DNA of 64,000 nucleotides from Bradyrhizobium sp. CCBAU 53338 (lineage in GTDB: Bacteria > Pseudomonadota > Alphaproteobacteria > Rhizobiales > Xanthobacteraceae). The stretch's first letter is position 1; every line of letters begins with the position of its first letter. Both the position numbers and the translations under genes were made by a program. The notes below the pieces were generated by a model. The model worked only from the letters and a program-made list of their open reading frames with translations, did not search any database and was not told where the DNA came from. Positions 46,369-51,959 of this stretch are shown one piece after another. The stretch spans positions 3,286,001-3,350,000 of the forward strand of contig NZ_CP030048.1 in the NCBI RefSeq assembly GCF_015291665.1, written 5' to 3'.

Positions 46369-46399
46369 TGGTTCATCCGTAGGAATACCGAGGACAACG

Positions 46400-46426
46400 A
46401 AAAGGCCGGCGAAAGCCGGCCTTTTT
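46400..46426 (+). terminator. Intrinsic terminator after rpoC
   Basis: The stem AAAGGCCGGC (46401-46410) and GCCGGCCTTT (46415-46424) has a GAAA tetraloop and a T run to 46426. It closes the rplJL-rpoBC unit, so the next gene needs its own promoter within 46427-46561. Confidence 0.95.
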
Positions 46427-46561
46427 GCTGCTTTGTTTGCCTGTTGCGATGCGGGATCAACCTTTGTTCATCTTTCCTTCAGGCGCAAAAGCGCTTCTGC
46501 TAAGGGAGCTTAGACCGGTGGATCCCGTGACGGGGGCAGGGCCGGAGACCACGGAACTAAT

Positions 46562-48625
46562 ATGCTGGATCTCGCAATCGTAGGCGGCGGCCCGGGCGGG
46601 CTGATGAGCGCCTGGTATCTGAAGCGTAAGCTCGGCGACCTCTGCCGCATCACCATCTTCGAGGCCTCCGACAGGCTCGGCGGCAAGATCGTCACGCGCA
46701 AATTCGATTCGGCGCCGGCAATGTACGAGGCTGGTGTTGCCGAGATCTACGACTACTCGATGACGGGTCCAGATCCGCTGCGCGAGCTGATCCAGCATTT
46801 CGGCTTGCAGACGATTCCGATGGATGCCGAGCAGGTGCAGTTCGGCGGTGAGTTGCTCAACGACGTCGCCGGCATGCGCCGCAAATACGGTGCCAAGACT
46901 GCGGCCGCGATCGAGGAGTTTCGCAAGCGCTGTGCCGACGAGATGTCGCCGATCGAGTATTACGAAGGCGTCGGCGCCCATGACAACGAGAACCCCTGGG
47001 CCTACAAGACCGCCGAGCAGGTGCTCGACGAGGAGGTCAAGGACGAGATCGCAAAGCGGTTCTTCAAGGTGATGGCGCGCTCGGACATCGCGACCGAGAG
47101 TCACAACACCAACGGCCTCAACGCGCTCAAGAACTATCTGATGGATGTCGACGGCTATATCGGCCTCTACTCCATCCAGAACGGCAACGAGCAGCTGATC
47201 GACTGCCTCCAGTCGGAGGTCAACGCCGACATCCAGCTCAATCATCGCGTGCTGACCGTCGGCAAGGCGTCGACCGGCCGCTATCAGCTCAAGATGATGA
47301 ACGGGAAGGGGCCGGAGACTCGCGACTTCGATCTCGTGCTGGTTTGTCTGCCGCACTCCTGGCTCTCCACCGTCGGATGGGAAGGCGAGCAGCTGCGCAA
47401 GTCGATGGTCAAGCACGTCGCTTTTTTCGACCGTCCCGCGCATTATTTGCGCGTCTCGATCCTGTTCGACAGCCCGTTCTGGGGCGACAGGATTTCCGGC
47501 GCCTGGTTCATGTCGGAAGCCTTCGGCGGCTGCTGCGTCTACAACGAGGGCGCCCGTCACGACGTCGGCAAGCACGGCGTGCTGAACTGGCTGATTCCGG
47601 GCTCCGATGCGCTCGCCTTCGCCAACCTGTCAGACCAGGAACTGATCGACGCCGCGCTGAAATCATTGCCGGCCTCGCTTGGGGACGCGCGCGCGCACTT
47701 CATGGAAGGCAAGATCCACCGCTGGCTGTCGTCGGTGAATGCGCTGCCTGGCGGCCTGCCCGTGCGCGACATCATGACCAACCATCGCCCCGAGCCGAAG
47801 GAACATCCCGGCATCGTGGTGGTCGGCGATTATCTGTTCGACTCGACGCTGAACGGTCTGCTCGATTCCTCGGACGCCGCGACCGACATCATCCTGACCG
47901 AGATGATGCGCCTGCGCCGCGAGCGCGCGCAGGAAGCCGGCGAGGCGATCTCCGACAAGATCGACCGCGACTATTTCGAGAACTACCGCGGCCTCGGCCC
48001 CTATGGCGAGGTCTGGAAGCAGTTCACCGATCCGGATTATCTGTCCGGGCTGATCAGCATCGTCTGGGGCAAGACCAAGGGCGCGCGGCTGCTGGTCGCA
48101 GGCTCCGCCAGCGGCGAGCTGGTCGGCGCGTTGCGAGATCGCGGTATCGATGCCTGGGGCATCGAGAACAACCGCGCCATTCACGCCAAGACGCCGAAGG
48201 CGCTGAAGAAGTTCAACAAGCTCGGCTCGATCACCGACATGCCGTTCAAGGACGGCAGCTTCGACTACGTGTTCGAGACCAGCCTCTGCCACGTTGCCCC
48301 GAAGCAGGTGGTCCGTGCGATCCGCGAGTTGAACCGCGTGGTCAAGACCGGCCTCGTGTTCGGCTCGGTCACCTCGGACATGGCATCGGCCGTGATCGAC
48401 CGCTACGATCTCTTGCGCGGGGTCAAGAAGCTCGGCACCTGGTGGGAATGGTCCGAACTGTTCTTCGGCAACGGCTTCGATCTGTCGATGCACCGCAAGG
48501 ACTGCACCGACGCGCTCTGGACGGCGACGCTCGCCGCCAACAAGGGCCCGGGCCAGTGGTATGCCGACGCCGACAGTTTGCGCTATTCCTTCTTCGACAA
48601 GGTCGAGGACGAAGACGACGACTAG
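46562..48625 (+). CDS. Flavin amine-oxidase-like domain fused to a SAM methyltransferase-like domain
   Basis: A 687-residue two-domain protein. Residues 1-455 are an FAD amine oxidase-like fold: LAIVGGGPGGLMSAWYL at 4-20, IFEASDRLGGKIVT, and the C-terminal FAD contact IVVVGDYLFDSTLNGLLDSS near 418-440. Residues about 490-670 look like a class I methyltransferase: LLVAGSASGELVGALRDRG near 509 (degenerate motif I), acidic GIENN, then FDYVFETSLCHV. No linker break or frameshift is seen, so the fusion appears real. It ends in an acidic tail (VEDEDDD). There is no signal peptide. An ABC exporter follows 134 bp downstream. Substrate unknown; oxidation plus methylation of a small molecule or peptide is inferred. 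Confidence 0.8.
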   Translation: MLDLAIVGGGPGGLMSAWYLKRKLGDLCRITIFEASDRLGGKIVTRKFDSAPAMYEAGVAEIYDYSMTGPDPLRELIQHFGLQTIPMDAEQVQFGGELLNDVAGMRRKYGAKTAAAIEEFRKRCADEMSPIEYYEGVGAHDNENPWAYKTAEQVLDEEVKDEIAKRFFKVMARSDIATESHNTNGLNALKNYLMDVDGYIGLYSIQNGNEQLIDCLQSEVNADIQLNHRVLTVGKASTGRYQLKMMNGKGPETRDFDLVLVCLPHSWLSTVGWEGEQLRKSMVKHVAFFDRPAHYLRVSILFDSPFWGDRISGAWFMSEAFGGCCVYNEGARHDVGKHGVLNWLIPGSDALAFANLSDQELIDAALKSLPASLGDARAHFMEGKIHRWLSSVNALPGGLPVRDIMTNHRPEPKEHPGIVVVGDYLFDSTLNGLLDSSDAATDIILTEMMRLRRERAQEAGEAISDKIDRDYFENYRGLGPYGEVWKQFTDPDYLSGLISIVWGKTKGARLLVAGSASGELVGALRDRGIDAWGIENNRAIHAKTPKALKKFNKLGSITDMPFKDGSFDYVFETSLCHVAPKQVVRAIRELNRVVKTGLVFGSVTSDMASAVIDRYDLLRGVKKLGTWWEWSELFFGNGFDLSMHRKDCTDALWTATLAANKGPGQWYADADSLRYSFFDKVEDEDDD

Positions 48626-48759
48626 CATCACGAGGCGGATGAATTCGCCAATTGTTTTGCCGAATTCATCCTGATCGCATAGAATCGCTGCAAGTAGCGG
48701 CTTCCGCTATTTCCCTGCTTTCTCTGCGGTCATGCCGGCCGTCAGCATCGGTTGGTTTC

Positions 48760-50793
48760 ATGGCGTCCAGGCCTCTTTCTCCCGACAAACAGAAGCTCGC
48801 CGCGCAAGAGGCGGCCGAGCTCGAGGACAAGCTCGTCGCCGGTCAGGAGCCCGAGCTGGAAGACGACGAGGACGACCAAGACGAGGACGACGACGAGCTC
48901 GAGCTCGAGGACGATGATGACGAGGATCTCGTCGTCTTTACCGCCCGCGAAGCCGCCGGCGCGCTGGCGACCATCCTGGGTTTCGTCAGACCCTTCCTGT
49001 CCAACTACAAGCGCATCCTGGGCTATGTGGCGTTCGGCGTTCTGGTCGAGACGCTGTTCAACGTCATCATGCCGCTCAGCCTCAAATTCCTCATCGACGA
49101 TGCGCTCGGCGAGGAGGATTTCCAGGCGCTGTACAAGATCCTCGGCGTGCTCGCGGTCGCCGGTATCTTCACATCGATTGTCGCGGTCTGGTACGAGCGC
49201 TGGGACGCACGGCTGGCCGCCTGCATCATCTCCGACGTCCGCAAGCGGCTGTTCGAGCACGTCCAGGATCTGCCGGCGGCCTATTTCGGCCGCACCAAGC
49301 GCGGTGAGATCCTGTCGCGTTTCTCGGTCGACCTCTCGGCTTTCGAAGGCTCGGTCAAGACCTTTGCCAACAGCGCGGCGCTGCCGTTCCTGGAGTTGAT
49401 CGCCGGCATCATTCTGATGCTGTTCCTGAACTGGCAGCTCGCCGTGGTCGCGCTGCTGGTGTTTCCGATCACGCTGATTGGCCCGCGCATCCTGACGCCC
49501 AAGGCGGTGCAGGCCAATTACGAGCAGAAGCTCAACGAAAGCGCACTGCTCGGCATGGTGCAGGAGAACGTGGCGGCGCAGGCCGTGATCAAGGCGTTCA
49601 GCCTGCAACGCAAGATGTTCGGCTTCTTCAGCTTCCGCAACGACGCGACCCGCGACAGGATTGCGGCCGCGGCGTTCCTGTCGACGATGGTGGAGCGGAC
49701 GGTCACCATCTCGGTGCTGCTGTTGCACCTCGTCGTGCTCGCCATCGGCGCCTATCTGGCGACCAAGGGCCAGATCACCATCGGCACCTTCGTCACCTTC
49801 GAGAGCGCGTTCTGGGAAGTGTCCTACAACATCGCCCACGTGATGCACTTCATCCCGGTGTCGATCTCCTCGGCTGCTGCAATCCGTCACATCCAGGAGT
49901 TGCTCGACGAGCCGACCCGCGGGGCCGATCGCCCGGGCGCGCCGGATCTGCCGCGCATCACCAACGACATCACCTTCGACCACGTGACGTTCCAGTACGA
50001 GGGCGGCCAGACGCCGGTGCTGGACAATCTCAGCCTCAAGCTCAATGCCGGCAAGAGCATCGCCATCGTCGGCCCGTCAGGCTCCGGCAAAAGCACGCTC
50101 CTCAATCTGATCCTGCGGCTTTACGTGCCGGACGAGGGGCGCGTCACCATCGACGGCGTCGACGTGCGCAAGGTGACGCTGGATTCGCTGCGTCGGAGCA
50201 TGGCCGTGGTGTTCCAGGAGAACATGCTGTTCAACATGTCGATCCGCGAGAACATCCGGCTCGGCAAGGAAGGCGCCACCGACGCGGAGGTGGAGGAGGC
50301 CGCCAAGAAGGCCGAGATCCACCGCTACATCATGAGCCTGCCGCAGCGCTACGACACGCCGGTCGGTGAGCGCGGCGACACGCTGTCGGGCGGCCAGCGC
50401 CAGCGCATCGCGATCGCGCGCGCGATCATCCGTAACCCTTCCGTGCTGCTGCTGGATGAGGCCACCTCGGCGCTCGACCAGACCACGGAGGCTGCGATCA
50501 ACCGCACGTTGCTGAAGGTCGCCAAGGGCCGCACCATGATCTGGTCGACCCACCGCCTGACTTCGGTGGTCGAGATGGACGAGATCATCGTGATTTCAGG
50601 GGGCAGGGCGATCGAGCGCGGCTCGCACGCCGAACTGCTCGCCAAGAACGGCACCTATCGCAAGCTCTGGAACGACCAGATCCATCAGCCGCACGGCGGG
50701 GCCGCTCAGGCTGAAGACGACAGCGACGATGACGACGAGGATGAGGACGACCTCGACGAGGATGATGAGGACGAGGACGAGGAGGAGGAGTGA
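48760..50793 (+). CDS. ABC exporter (fused TMD-NBD) with acidic N- and C-terminal tails
   Basis: A 677-residue half-transporter of the MsbA/multidrug type. Residues 30-56 are 22/27 Asp or Glu. Six transmembrane helices span about 75-360. The NBD has Walker A GPSGSGKST, Q-loop VFQEN, signature LSGGQRQR, Walker B VLLLDEATSALD and H-loop STHRL. The last 26 residues are 24 Asp/Glu. The start at 48760 was chosen because the longer frame from 48652 lacks family sequence; no strong ribosome site is seen. The acidic tail is antisense to the end of the next gene. Together with its flavoenzyme neighbours it may export their product. Confidence 0.87.
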   Translation: MASRPLSPDKQKLAAQEAAELEDKLVAGQEPELEDDEDDQDEDDDELELEDDDDEDLVVFTAREAAGALATILGFVRPFLSNYKRILGYVAFGVLVETLFNVIMPLSLKFLIDDALGEEDFQALYKILGVLAVAGIFTSIVAVWYERWDARLAACIISDVRKRLFEHVQDLPAAYFGRTKRGEILSRFSVDLSAFEGSVKTFANSAALPFLELIAGIILMLFLNWQLAVVALLVFPITLIGPRILTPKAVQANYEQKLNESALLGMVQENVAAQAVIKAFSLQRKMFGFFSFRNDATRDRIAAAAFLSTMVERTVTISVLLLHLVVLAIGAYLATKGQITIGTFVTFESAFWEVSYNIAHVMHFIPVSISSAAAIRHIQELLDEPTRGADRPGAPDLPRITNDITFDHVTFQYEGGQTPVLDNLSLKLNAGKSIAIVGPSGSGKSTLLNLILRLYVPDEGRVTIDGVDVRKVTLDSLRRSMAVVFQENMLFNMSIRENIRLGKEGATDAEVEEAAKKAEIHRYIMSLPQRYDTPVGERGDTLSGGQRQRIAIARAIIRNPSVLLLDEATSALDQTTEAAINRTLLKVAKGRTMIWSTHRLTSVVEMDEIIVISGGRAIERGSHAELLAKNGTYRKLWNDQIHQPHGGAAQAEDDSDDDDEDEDDLDEDDEDEDEEEE

Positions 50794-51959
50794 CCAAGGA
50801 AGTTCGGCTCCAGATCGAAGGCGCCTCCAAGCCTGCGCAATAATCCCTGGGTCGACCACGCCATGAAGCGCGCCCAGCGCTGCGCCGTCCAGTACGGGCC
50901 GGTTGCCATCGAAACCGAGCGGAAGTGGAAGGCTTTCGCCGCCGACCATTCATCGCAGGCCCGCTTGACCGGATCGGCATAGTAGCCGGCGATCTTGTTC
51001 GCATCCATCGCGTCGGACGCCAGCCATTGTGGGATGTAGACGTTGCAGAGCCGCTCGACGTCGGTGAAGACCTTGTCGCAGCCGGTGCCCGCAACCGGGC
51101 AAGAGGTGGCAAAGGCATCGCCCGCCAGCACCACGCCTGGCTGATGGCCGGCATCGTTCACGTAGAGGTCGACGGGACGGATCTTCGGCTCGCCGGCGAT
51201 GTCGAAGGCGCCGGTGATGCGCTTCAGCCGCGGCAGGGAGGCGTTCAATGTCTCGGCCGGCGCGCGGCGGAACTCGCGCAGCCAAGGATCGTCGAAACCG
51301 CGGTACACGAACAGATTGGCCCGCATCCGCGGGCCGATCGGAAACAGCGAGAAATAGGGGATCCGATCGCTCGGCCGCTCCGAGAAATAGGTCAGCGCCG
51401 GGAAGTCGAACGAAGTCCGTCCCGCCGGCACCACGTCGAAGCCGATCGAGATCGAATGGCAGGCGCTGATGACGTTGCGCTCGATCCCAAGCTGGTGGCG
51501 CAGGCCGACGTTCAGGCCGTTGGCGAGCACCACCAGACGGGCCGAGATGGCCTCGCCGTTCGCGAGGGCGATTCTCTGCCGCTCCGGGCTGGTCTCGACC
51601 GATACGGCTTTGGTCCAGATTCGCTCGACCGTCTCGGGGATTTCGTCGCGGATCGCGTTGACCAGGGAATCGTAGAGGATGTTGAACTGCCGACTCGGCG
51701 CCTTGTCGAGCAGATGGCCGAAGCGCGCGATCCAGTTCTCGCCGGAGAAAGTTGCCCGGCGCAGCACCGAGTCGGCGATTCCCGTCCGCTGAAATCGCTC
51801 GACCTGTCCGTGACCGCTGAGTTTCTCGACGCGAAAATCGACCGGGTAGGTCTCATGCGGGTCGATCATGACTGCCGAAATGCCGGCGCGCCCGAGCATC
51901 GCAGCGGCCGTCGAGCCGGCCAGTCCCCCGCCAATGATGGCAATATCGGTGTACCGCAT
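50706..51959 (-). CDS. FAD-dependent monooxygenase-like protein with polyserine tail
   Basis: A 417-residue group A flavoprotein. DIAIIGGGLAGSTAAAML at 5-22 is the dinucleotide motif, and GVVLAGDAFATSCPVAGTGCDKVFTDVERL carries the GD motif that contacts FAD. It lacks the WxWxIP of tryptophan halogenases. The family-like part ends near EPNFLGH; the last 26 codons are S12-R-S9-L-S3, read antisense through the exporter's acidic tail, then a stop at 50706. The two genes converge and overlap by 88 bp. Start ATG 51959 is followed upstream by an AT-rich zone (52001-52056). It probably hydroxylates or reduces a hydrophobic substrate; unknown. Confidence 0.8.
   Translation of the reverse strand: MRYTDIAIIGGGLAGSTAAAMLGRAGISAVMIDPHETYPVDFRVEKLSGHGQVERFQRTGIADSVLRRATFSGENWIARFGHLLDKAPSRQFNILYDSLVNAIRDEIPETVERIWTKAVSVETSPERQRIALANGEAISARLVVLANGLNVGLRHQLGIERNVISACHSISIGFDVVPAGRTSFDFPALTYFSERPSDRIPYFSLFPIGPRMRANLFVYRGFDDPWLREFRRAPAETLNASLPRLKRITGAFDIAGEPKIRPVDLYVNDAGHQPGVVLAGDAFATSCPVAGTGCDKVFTDVERLCNVYIPQWLASDAMDANKIAGYYADPVKRACDEWSAAKAFHFRSVSMATGPYWTAQRWARFMAWSTQGLLRRLGGAFDLEPNFLGHSSSSSSSSSSSSRSSSSSSSSSLSSSA

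Follow-up and report, generated by a model that had tools for sequence, protein, structure and literature searches.

A flavoenzyme-methyltransferase fusion and an ABC exporter form a linked two-gene unit beside rpoC in Bradyrhizobium

Three open reading frames (ORFs) stand between rpoC and rpsL in Bradyrhizobium sp. CCBAU 53338, within the 64,000-nucleotide window analyzed here (contig NZ_CP030048.1, positions 3,286,001 to 3,350,000), and raise the question of whether they serve a common function and what that function might be. They encode an amine oxidase-like flavin domain fused to a methyltransferase (AOMT), an ABC exporter with acidic tails and a convergent flavin monooxygenase (FMO). An initial annotation, made from the sequence without database searches, had read all three as a small tailoring-and-export pathway. 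Part of that proposal stands: the oxidase, methyltransferase and exporter constitute one closely linked two-gene unit. The monooxygenase is a bystander.

The two genes probably, if by no means securely, encode the synthesis and export of a small molecule, with FMO playing no part. This reading rests on linkage, co-occurrence, evolutionary distances that rise in step with those of rpoC, purifying selection, predicted folds and the exporter's tails. The flavin domain of AOMT would oxidize (dehydrogenate) a small substrate, probably one with an amine group, and the methyltransferase domain fused to it would methylate that intermediate. A homodimer of the exporter would carry the product across the inner membrane, its acidic tails serving to concentrate a cationic product or to dock the enzyme. 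Transcription would probably start at a dedicated promoter that includes a conserved element 5' of AOMT (Table 1).

Conservation and inheritance of the AOMT-exporter pair

Because AOMT, the exporter and rpoC occur together in all 83 loci fetched from Bradyrhizobium and its relatives (14 + 69), their arrangement is far beyond chance, the presence of AOMT being no evidence by itself as loci L097-L190 were chosen as AOMT carriers. The best 80 of 252 loci were kept. Among the 69 loci, nearly all titled Bradyrhizobium (L121-L190 minus the Nostoc locus L137; 66 reach rpsL), both genes are intact in 68; the remaining locus has an intact AOMT, but its exporter runs into a contig end. All 14 neighborhoods from other genera (L097-L110, with L103 and L106 ending short of rpsL) carry the pair, and three have FMO. 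Those of the 120 closest AOMT proteins listed that carry an organism name are from Bradyrhizobium.

Genome samples gave the same picture at E thresholds of 1e-30 or 1e-80 (AOMT) and 1e-110 (exporter). Every one of the 36 genomes examined from the window's genus, its own included, carries AOMT, as a full-length single match in 33 and in split or fragmentary form in G021, G030 and G033. In G021, an otherwise complete genome, the gene is broken at residue 349 into two adjacent ORFs, reflecting either a frameshift or an assembly error. Among 149 genomes sampled from the family, 47 contain AOMT, spread over 13 of the 47 genus labels, and 44 contain the exporter, from 12 of these labels; every genome with the exporter has AOMT, and the three with AOMT only all belong to genus g65. 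In a sample of 397 genomes from the order, all 30 genomes with an exporter orthologue fall within the 34 that have AOMT, and the two genes are adjacent on one strand in 30 of 30, with less than 500 nt between matches (compared by eye). The co-occurrence named as a check in the initial annotation was thus borne out for the pair; it failed for FMO, which in the family sample is found without AOMT as well. Furthermore, the pair is present in all eight Phreatobacter or Phreatobacter-like genomes (L111-L118), where rpoC is not nearby, and in a genome of another family (L203) it is flanked by rpoC and rpsL (AOMT 63%, exporter 58%). The pair is therefore kept across the window's genus, several other genera of the family, and Phreatobacter.

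Pairwise protein distances of AOMT, exporter and rpoC, computed, like the rates below, after removal of partial or stop-containing matches, correlate with Spearman coefficients of 0.92-0.94 (75-82 loci), and the unit was thus apparently inherited vertically. FMO gave lower correlations, 0.74-0.77, over a smaller set of 41-43 loci. In a shared set, AOMT has a mean protein distance of 0.135 and rpoC one of 0.055. Median dN/dS values against the window, obtained from the 69 loci after exclusion of L111-L120 and L137 as lying outside the Bradyrhizobium clade, are 0.076 for rpoC, 0.083 for the exporter, 0.117 for AOMT and 0.222 for FMO; the purifying selection on AOMT and the exporter comes fairly close to that acting on rpoC. 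The stable vertical inheritance suggested at the outset agrees with the way distances follow rpoC, but it does not extend to the segment between exporter and rpsL, which is variable, nor to at least four genomes labeled g44, which lack the pair.

No paper on the pair or on this combination was found in the literature searched, nor did any metabolite, phenotype or expression datum emerge. In strain USDA110, bll5409 and bll5410 encode the large subunits of RNA polymerase (PMC8225791, PMC8632152, PMC6320959), which makes the pair in that strain probably bll5408/bll5407. Neither bll5408 nor bll5407 was found together with Bradyrhizobium in the main texts of the papers searched. The pair is a compact, uncharacterized unit in agriculturally central bacteria, its enzyme present throughout the genus sample and its genes under selection near that of rpoC; if the proposed function is correct, Bradyrhizobium and relatives secrete a molecule that has so far not been looked for.

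Predicted activities of the enzyme and the exporter

The 687-aa AOMT protein consists of a flavin adenine dinucleotide (FAD)-binding amine-oxidase fold (residues ~1-452) and a class I S-adenosylmethionine (SAM)-dependent methyltransferase domain (~485-684). The fusion, already recognized in the initial annotation, is supported by matches to PF01593 (E 1.4e-26, 94.2 bits against a curated cut-off of 19.8) and Methyltransf_11 (E 1.1e-9, above its curated cut-off). Predicted structure models have pLDDT values of 87.8 and 90.2, and fold matches listed for the flavin part mostly cover residues 1-452. Glycines G8, G9, G10, G12 and G13 of the dinucleotide-binding motif are invariant in 42 sequences, and the methyltransferase domain has the conserved Gly-rich motif and acidic residue of class I SAM methyltransferases. 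Two AOMT relatives, P0159 and P0190, apparently have two methyltransferase domains in tandem, P0159 with two matched stretches.

Flavin amine oxidases place a lysine near flavin N5. In a profile alignment, Arg297 of AOMT lies opposite this lysine of MAO-A and putrescine oxidase, and all 42 homologues aligned have the arginine, so that the flavin-site lysine of flavin-containing amine oxidases is absent from AOMT.

The exporter (677 aa) matches ABC_membrane and ABC_tran in Pfam, and Walker A, LSGGQ and Walker B motifs were read by eye in its translation, placing it among the ABCB-type exporters. Its ORF is already open from a TTG at 48652, and the ATG at 48760 was taken as the start because a similar SVGFMA start occurs in the relative L210. 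The acidic tails noted initially recur in relatives of the exporter: with the window's protein included, the N-terminal extension is net negative in 93 of 93 sequences and the C-terminal tail in 88 of 91.

Alternatively, AOMT could modify an amine-bearing membrane lipid, such as an amino-hopanoid or the head group of an aminolipid, for which the pump would act as a flippase. In the PDB, one of the best sequence matches of the exporter is the phosphatidylcholine translocator ABCB4, MsbA ranking further down. Foldseek matched the methyltransferase domain to, among others, phosphoethanolamine methyltransferases, and Bradyrhizobium makes amino-hopanoids. However, similarity to ABCB proteins cannot separate lipid export from drug export, and the exporter scores far under the cut-off of the MsbA lipid A model TIGR02203 (377.3 bits, cut-off 602). 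A lipid route is considered unlikely. An identity as MsbA was rejected on that score, as was ChvA, since the ChvA/NdvA glucan model TIGR01192 gave 287.4 bits against a cut-off of 585.4.

Detoxification was rated lower still. Under this explanation, AOMT would convert a toxic amine or aldehyde that the pump then expels, for protection and not as a signal. Multidrug pumps do occur among ABCB-type exporters, and retention of AOMT throughout the window's genus would suit a protective housekeeping role, but oxidation and methylation within a single chain resemble tailoring, and we know of no multidrug pump with acidic tails.

Returning to synthesis and export by the pair, a number of observations count against it. 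Because Arg297 replaces the flavin-site lysine in all 42 homologues, amine oxidation by AOMT is doubtful, and the flavin step could instead be another dehydrogenation. The exporter searches scored only the best 3-9 candidates per genome. The pair was missing from the g44 genomes G078, G119, G160 and G177, AOMT being present in G141 and G193 of the same label. In 11 loci, AOMT (40-46% identical to that of the window) has no adjoining exporter: Polyangium L119, Nostoc L120 and L137, g65 L093-L095, L096, L202, L204 and the short contigs L205 and L206. Thus, the enzyme does not always depend on this pump. A protein of ~290 aa follows AOMT in six of these 11 (L093-L096, L202 and L204), and such a difference in partner between lineages weakens a fixed link to the pump. 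The two ~290-aa proteins scanned had no Pfam match; P0241, a protein of this kind without a Pfam hit, may resemble RMD1/DUF155 proteins. Finally, AOMT and exporter are separated by a gap of variable length in which a hairpin can occur, which makes transcription as a single operon uncertain. In the window the gap contains an inverted repeat centered around GAATTC, variants of which occur in several, not all, relatives, others having different hairpins.

The Polyangium and Nostoc homologues lie far outside the Alphaproteobacteria, which suggests horizontal transfer of AOMT.

Control region, locus layout and the monooxygenase slot

The layout between the rpoC stop (46368) and the rpsL start (52625) is given in Table 1, and the three genes and the strong rpoC terminator are located as initially described. 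A 20-nt element lies 66-279 nt 5' of AOMT in 82 of 83 loci, with no mismatch in 65, one in 13, two in three and three in one; L101 lacks it. Even with three mismatches allowed, the 8.3 Mb genome contains it once, and a control with the reversed pattern gave 0 sites. Because it remains close to AOMT in eight loci where 1.4-5.2 kb separate it from rpoC, the element follows AOMT and not rpoC. It is probably part of a dedicated AOMT promoter. Within 350 nt upstream of AOMT it was not found in Phreatobacter, L203, Polyangium or Nostoc. The element was not matched to any known motif; its GTTC-N7-CTTC spacing may resemble that of alphaproteobacterial LexA boxes. L152 and L103 have several extra kilobases between rpoC and the control element.

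Table 1. Features of the rpoC-rpsL interval (window coordinates) and, in the last row, of AOMT loci without an exporter
Feature	Position	Strand	Basis or remarks
Intrinsic terminator of rpoC	46398-46427	+	13-pair stem, loop 4, T-run
Conserved 20-nt element TTTGTTCATCTTyCCTTCAG, 5' of AOMT	46463-46482	+	82/83 loci; weaker conservation on to about 46517
AOMT, FAD oxidoreductase/methyltransferase fusion	46562-48625	+	Pfam, structure models, fold matches
35-nt inverted repeat (11-bp stem) in AOMT-exporter gap	48637-48671	+	Sequence
ABCB-like half-size ABC exporter, acidic N- and C-terminal extensions	48760-50793	+	Pfam, PDB sequence matches, tail charge
FAD monooxygenase (FMO), judged a neighbor and not a member	50706-51959	-	Pfam; independent distribution
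~290-aa protein, hydrophobic C terminus	L093: 10124-10996; L096: 10312-11154		Two copies in L202

FMO (417 aa) was confirmed as a flavin monooxygenase convergent with the exporter (PF01494, E 2.6e-16), and it overlaps the exporter's last 88 bases. The serine run at its C terminus simply reads the acidic-tail codons of the exporter in antisense and was rejected as a genuine feature; paralogues of 38-41% identity align only as far as residues 366-369. The str promoter that had been placed beyond FMO was not recovered: a scan for sigma-70-type sites was negative from FMO to rpsL, a result that does not bear on other promoter types. Three weak Rfam matches in the region all fell below gathering scores.

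Could FMO be a third tailoring enzyme in a single pathway with the pair? It adjoins the pair in the window and is intact in 40 of the 66 AOMT loci that reach rpsL. However, it is absent from 22 of these 66 and partial in four, it occurs without AOMT in 18 genomes of the family sample, and its distances are more loosely coupled to those of rpoC (0.764, in a smaller set of 41 loci). At E 1e-30, FMO is found in 45 of the 149 family genomes, 27 of them with AOMT, some matches being paralogues of 37-42%, and in some genomes that have both (e.g., G124 and G198) it is distant from AOMT. Moreover, a GNAT gene adjoins it, within about 225 nt, in nine of 11 FMO loci away from the AOMT locus (L191-L201, with L191 and L192 as exceptions). 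A three-gene pathway is therefore very improbable and was rejected in favor of FMO acting as a separate module. The independent scattering named initially as a possible refutation thus applies to the monooxygenase but not to AOMT and the exporter.

The products of these GNAT genes share 35-65% identity with L106's Acetyltransf_6 protein, and six of the genes are divergent from FMO. In L194 and L197 (genus label g44), FMO-GNAT adjoins rpoC in genomes that altogether lack AOMT and exporter. Across genera, FMO and GNAT look like a module of their own. A scan of the 83 AOMT loci gave an FMO match in 48, GNAT in eight and both in five. Tenants of the exporter-rpsL slot vary and include, besides FMO, GNAT (L104, L106), an FkbM methyltransferase (L097), a weakly matched ATP-grasp protein (L097, L105), DUF2239 (L110) and other ORFs. 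FMO is thus one of several occupants of this variable slot. Identities as QhpG (NF049967, 31.6 bits, cut-off 240) and as UbiH/Coq6 (TIGR01988, 67.9 bits, cut-off 224.65) were rejected for it.

Comparison with known systems

As in the initial annotation, no named system of this composition was found. Scores for AOMT, exporter and FMO were all below cut-off among the best NCBIfam models (15 of 15, 25 of 190 and 25 of 51 matched models, respectively). The quinohemoprotein amine dehydrogenase maturation proteins QhpG and QhpF likewise set a flavin monooxygenase beside an ABC exporter, QhpF, but FMO falls far below the QhpG cut-off and is not tied to the exporter described here. Pls/PosA synthetases provide another point of contact, in that a metagenomic protein, P0175 (1307 aa), fuses part of their terminal domain (336 bits, cut-off 423) to an AOMT. 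This suggested a non-ribosomal peptide synthetase as upstream enzyme, which was rejected for want of co-occurrence: Pls/PosA synthetases are present in 20 of 149 family genomes, none of them among the 47 with AOMT.

The individual domains are more familiar. AOMT shares its fold and FAD-binding glycines with the flavin amine oxidases of PF01593 (monoamine oxidase, putrescine oxidase, L-amino-acid oxidase and VioA), at 12-21% identity in the structure alignments listed, and differs from them in Arg297 and in the additional C-terminal methyltransferase domain. That domain has the fold of the small-molecule class I methyltransferases CgnL, TleD, TylM1 and RebM/AtmM (10-22% identity in the structure alignments listed), from which it differs by its fusion to a flavin domain. 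The exporter has the transmembrane and ATPase domains and the half-transporter layout of ABCB-type exporters (ABCB1/ABCB4, Sav1866, MsbA and TM_0288), but is unlike them in its acidic N- and C-terminal extensions, which its relatives share.

Each domain is thus already known as a superfamily member, and a unit of enzyme plus exporter is of a known sort. What is new are the acidic extensions on both exporter ends, the genome-unique 20-nt element and the arginine in place of lysine. A bolder possibility, less likely than not, is that the pair represents a new core pathway of Bradyrhizobium and near relatives, in which an Arg297 flavoenzyme-methyltransferase with a possibly different reaction would make a secreted metabolite, captured by polyacidic tails and expressed from a promoter whose element is unique in the genome.
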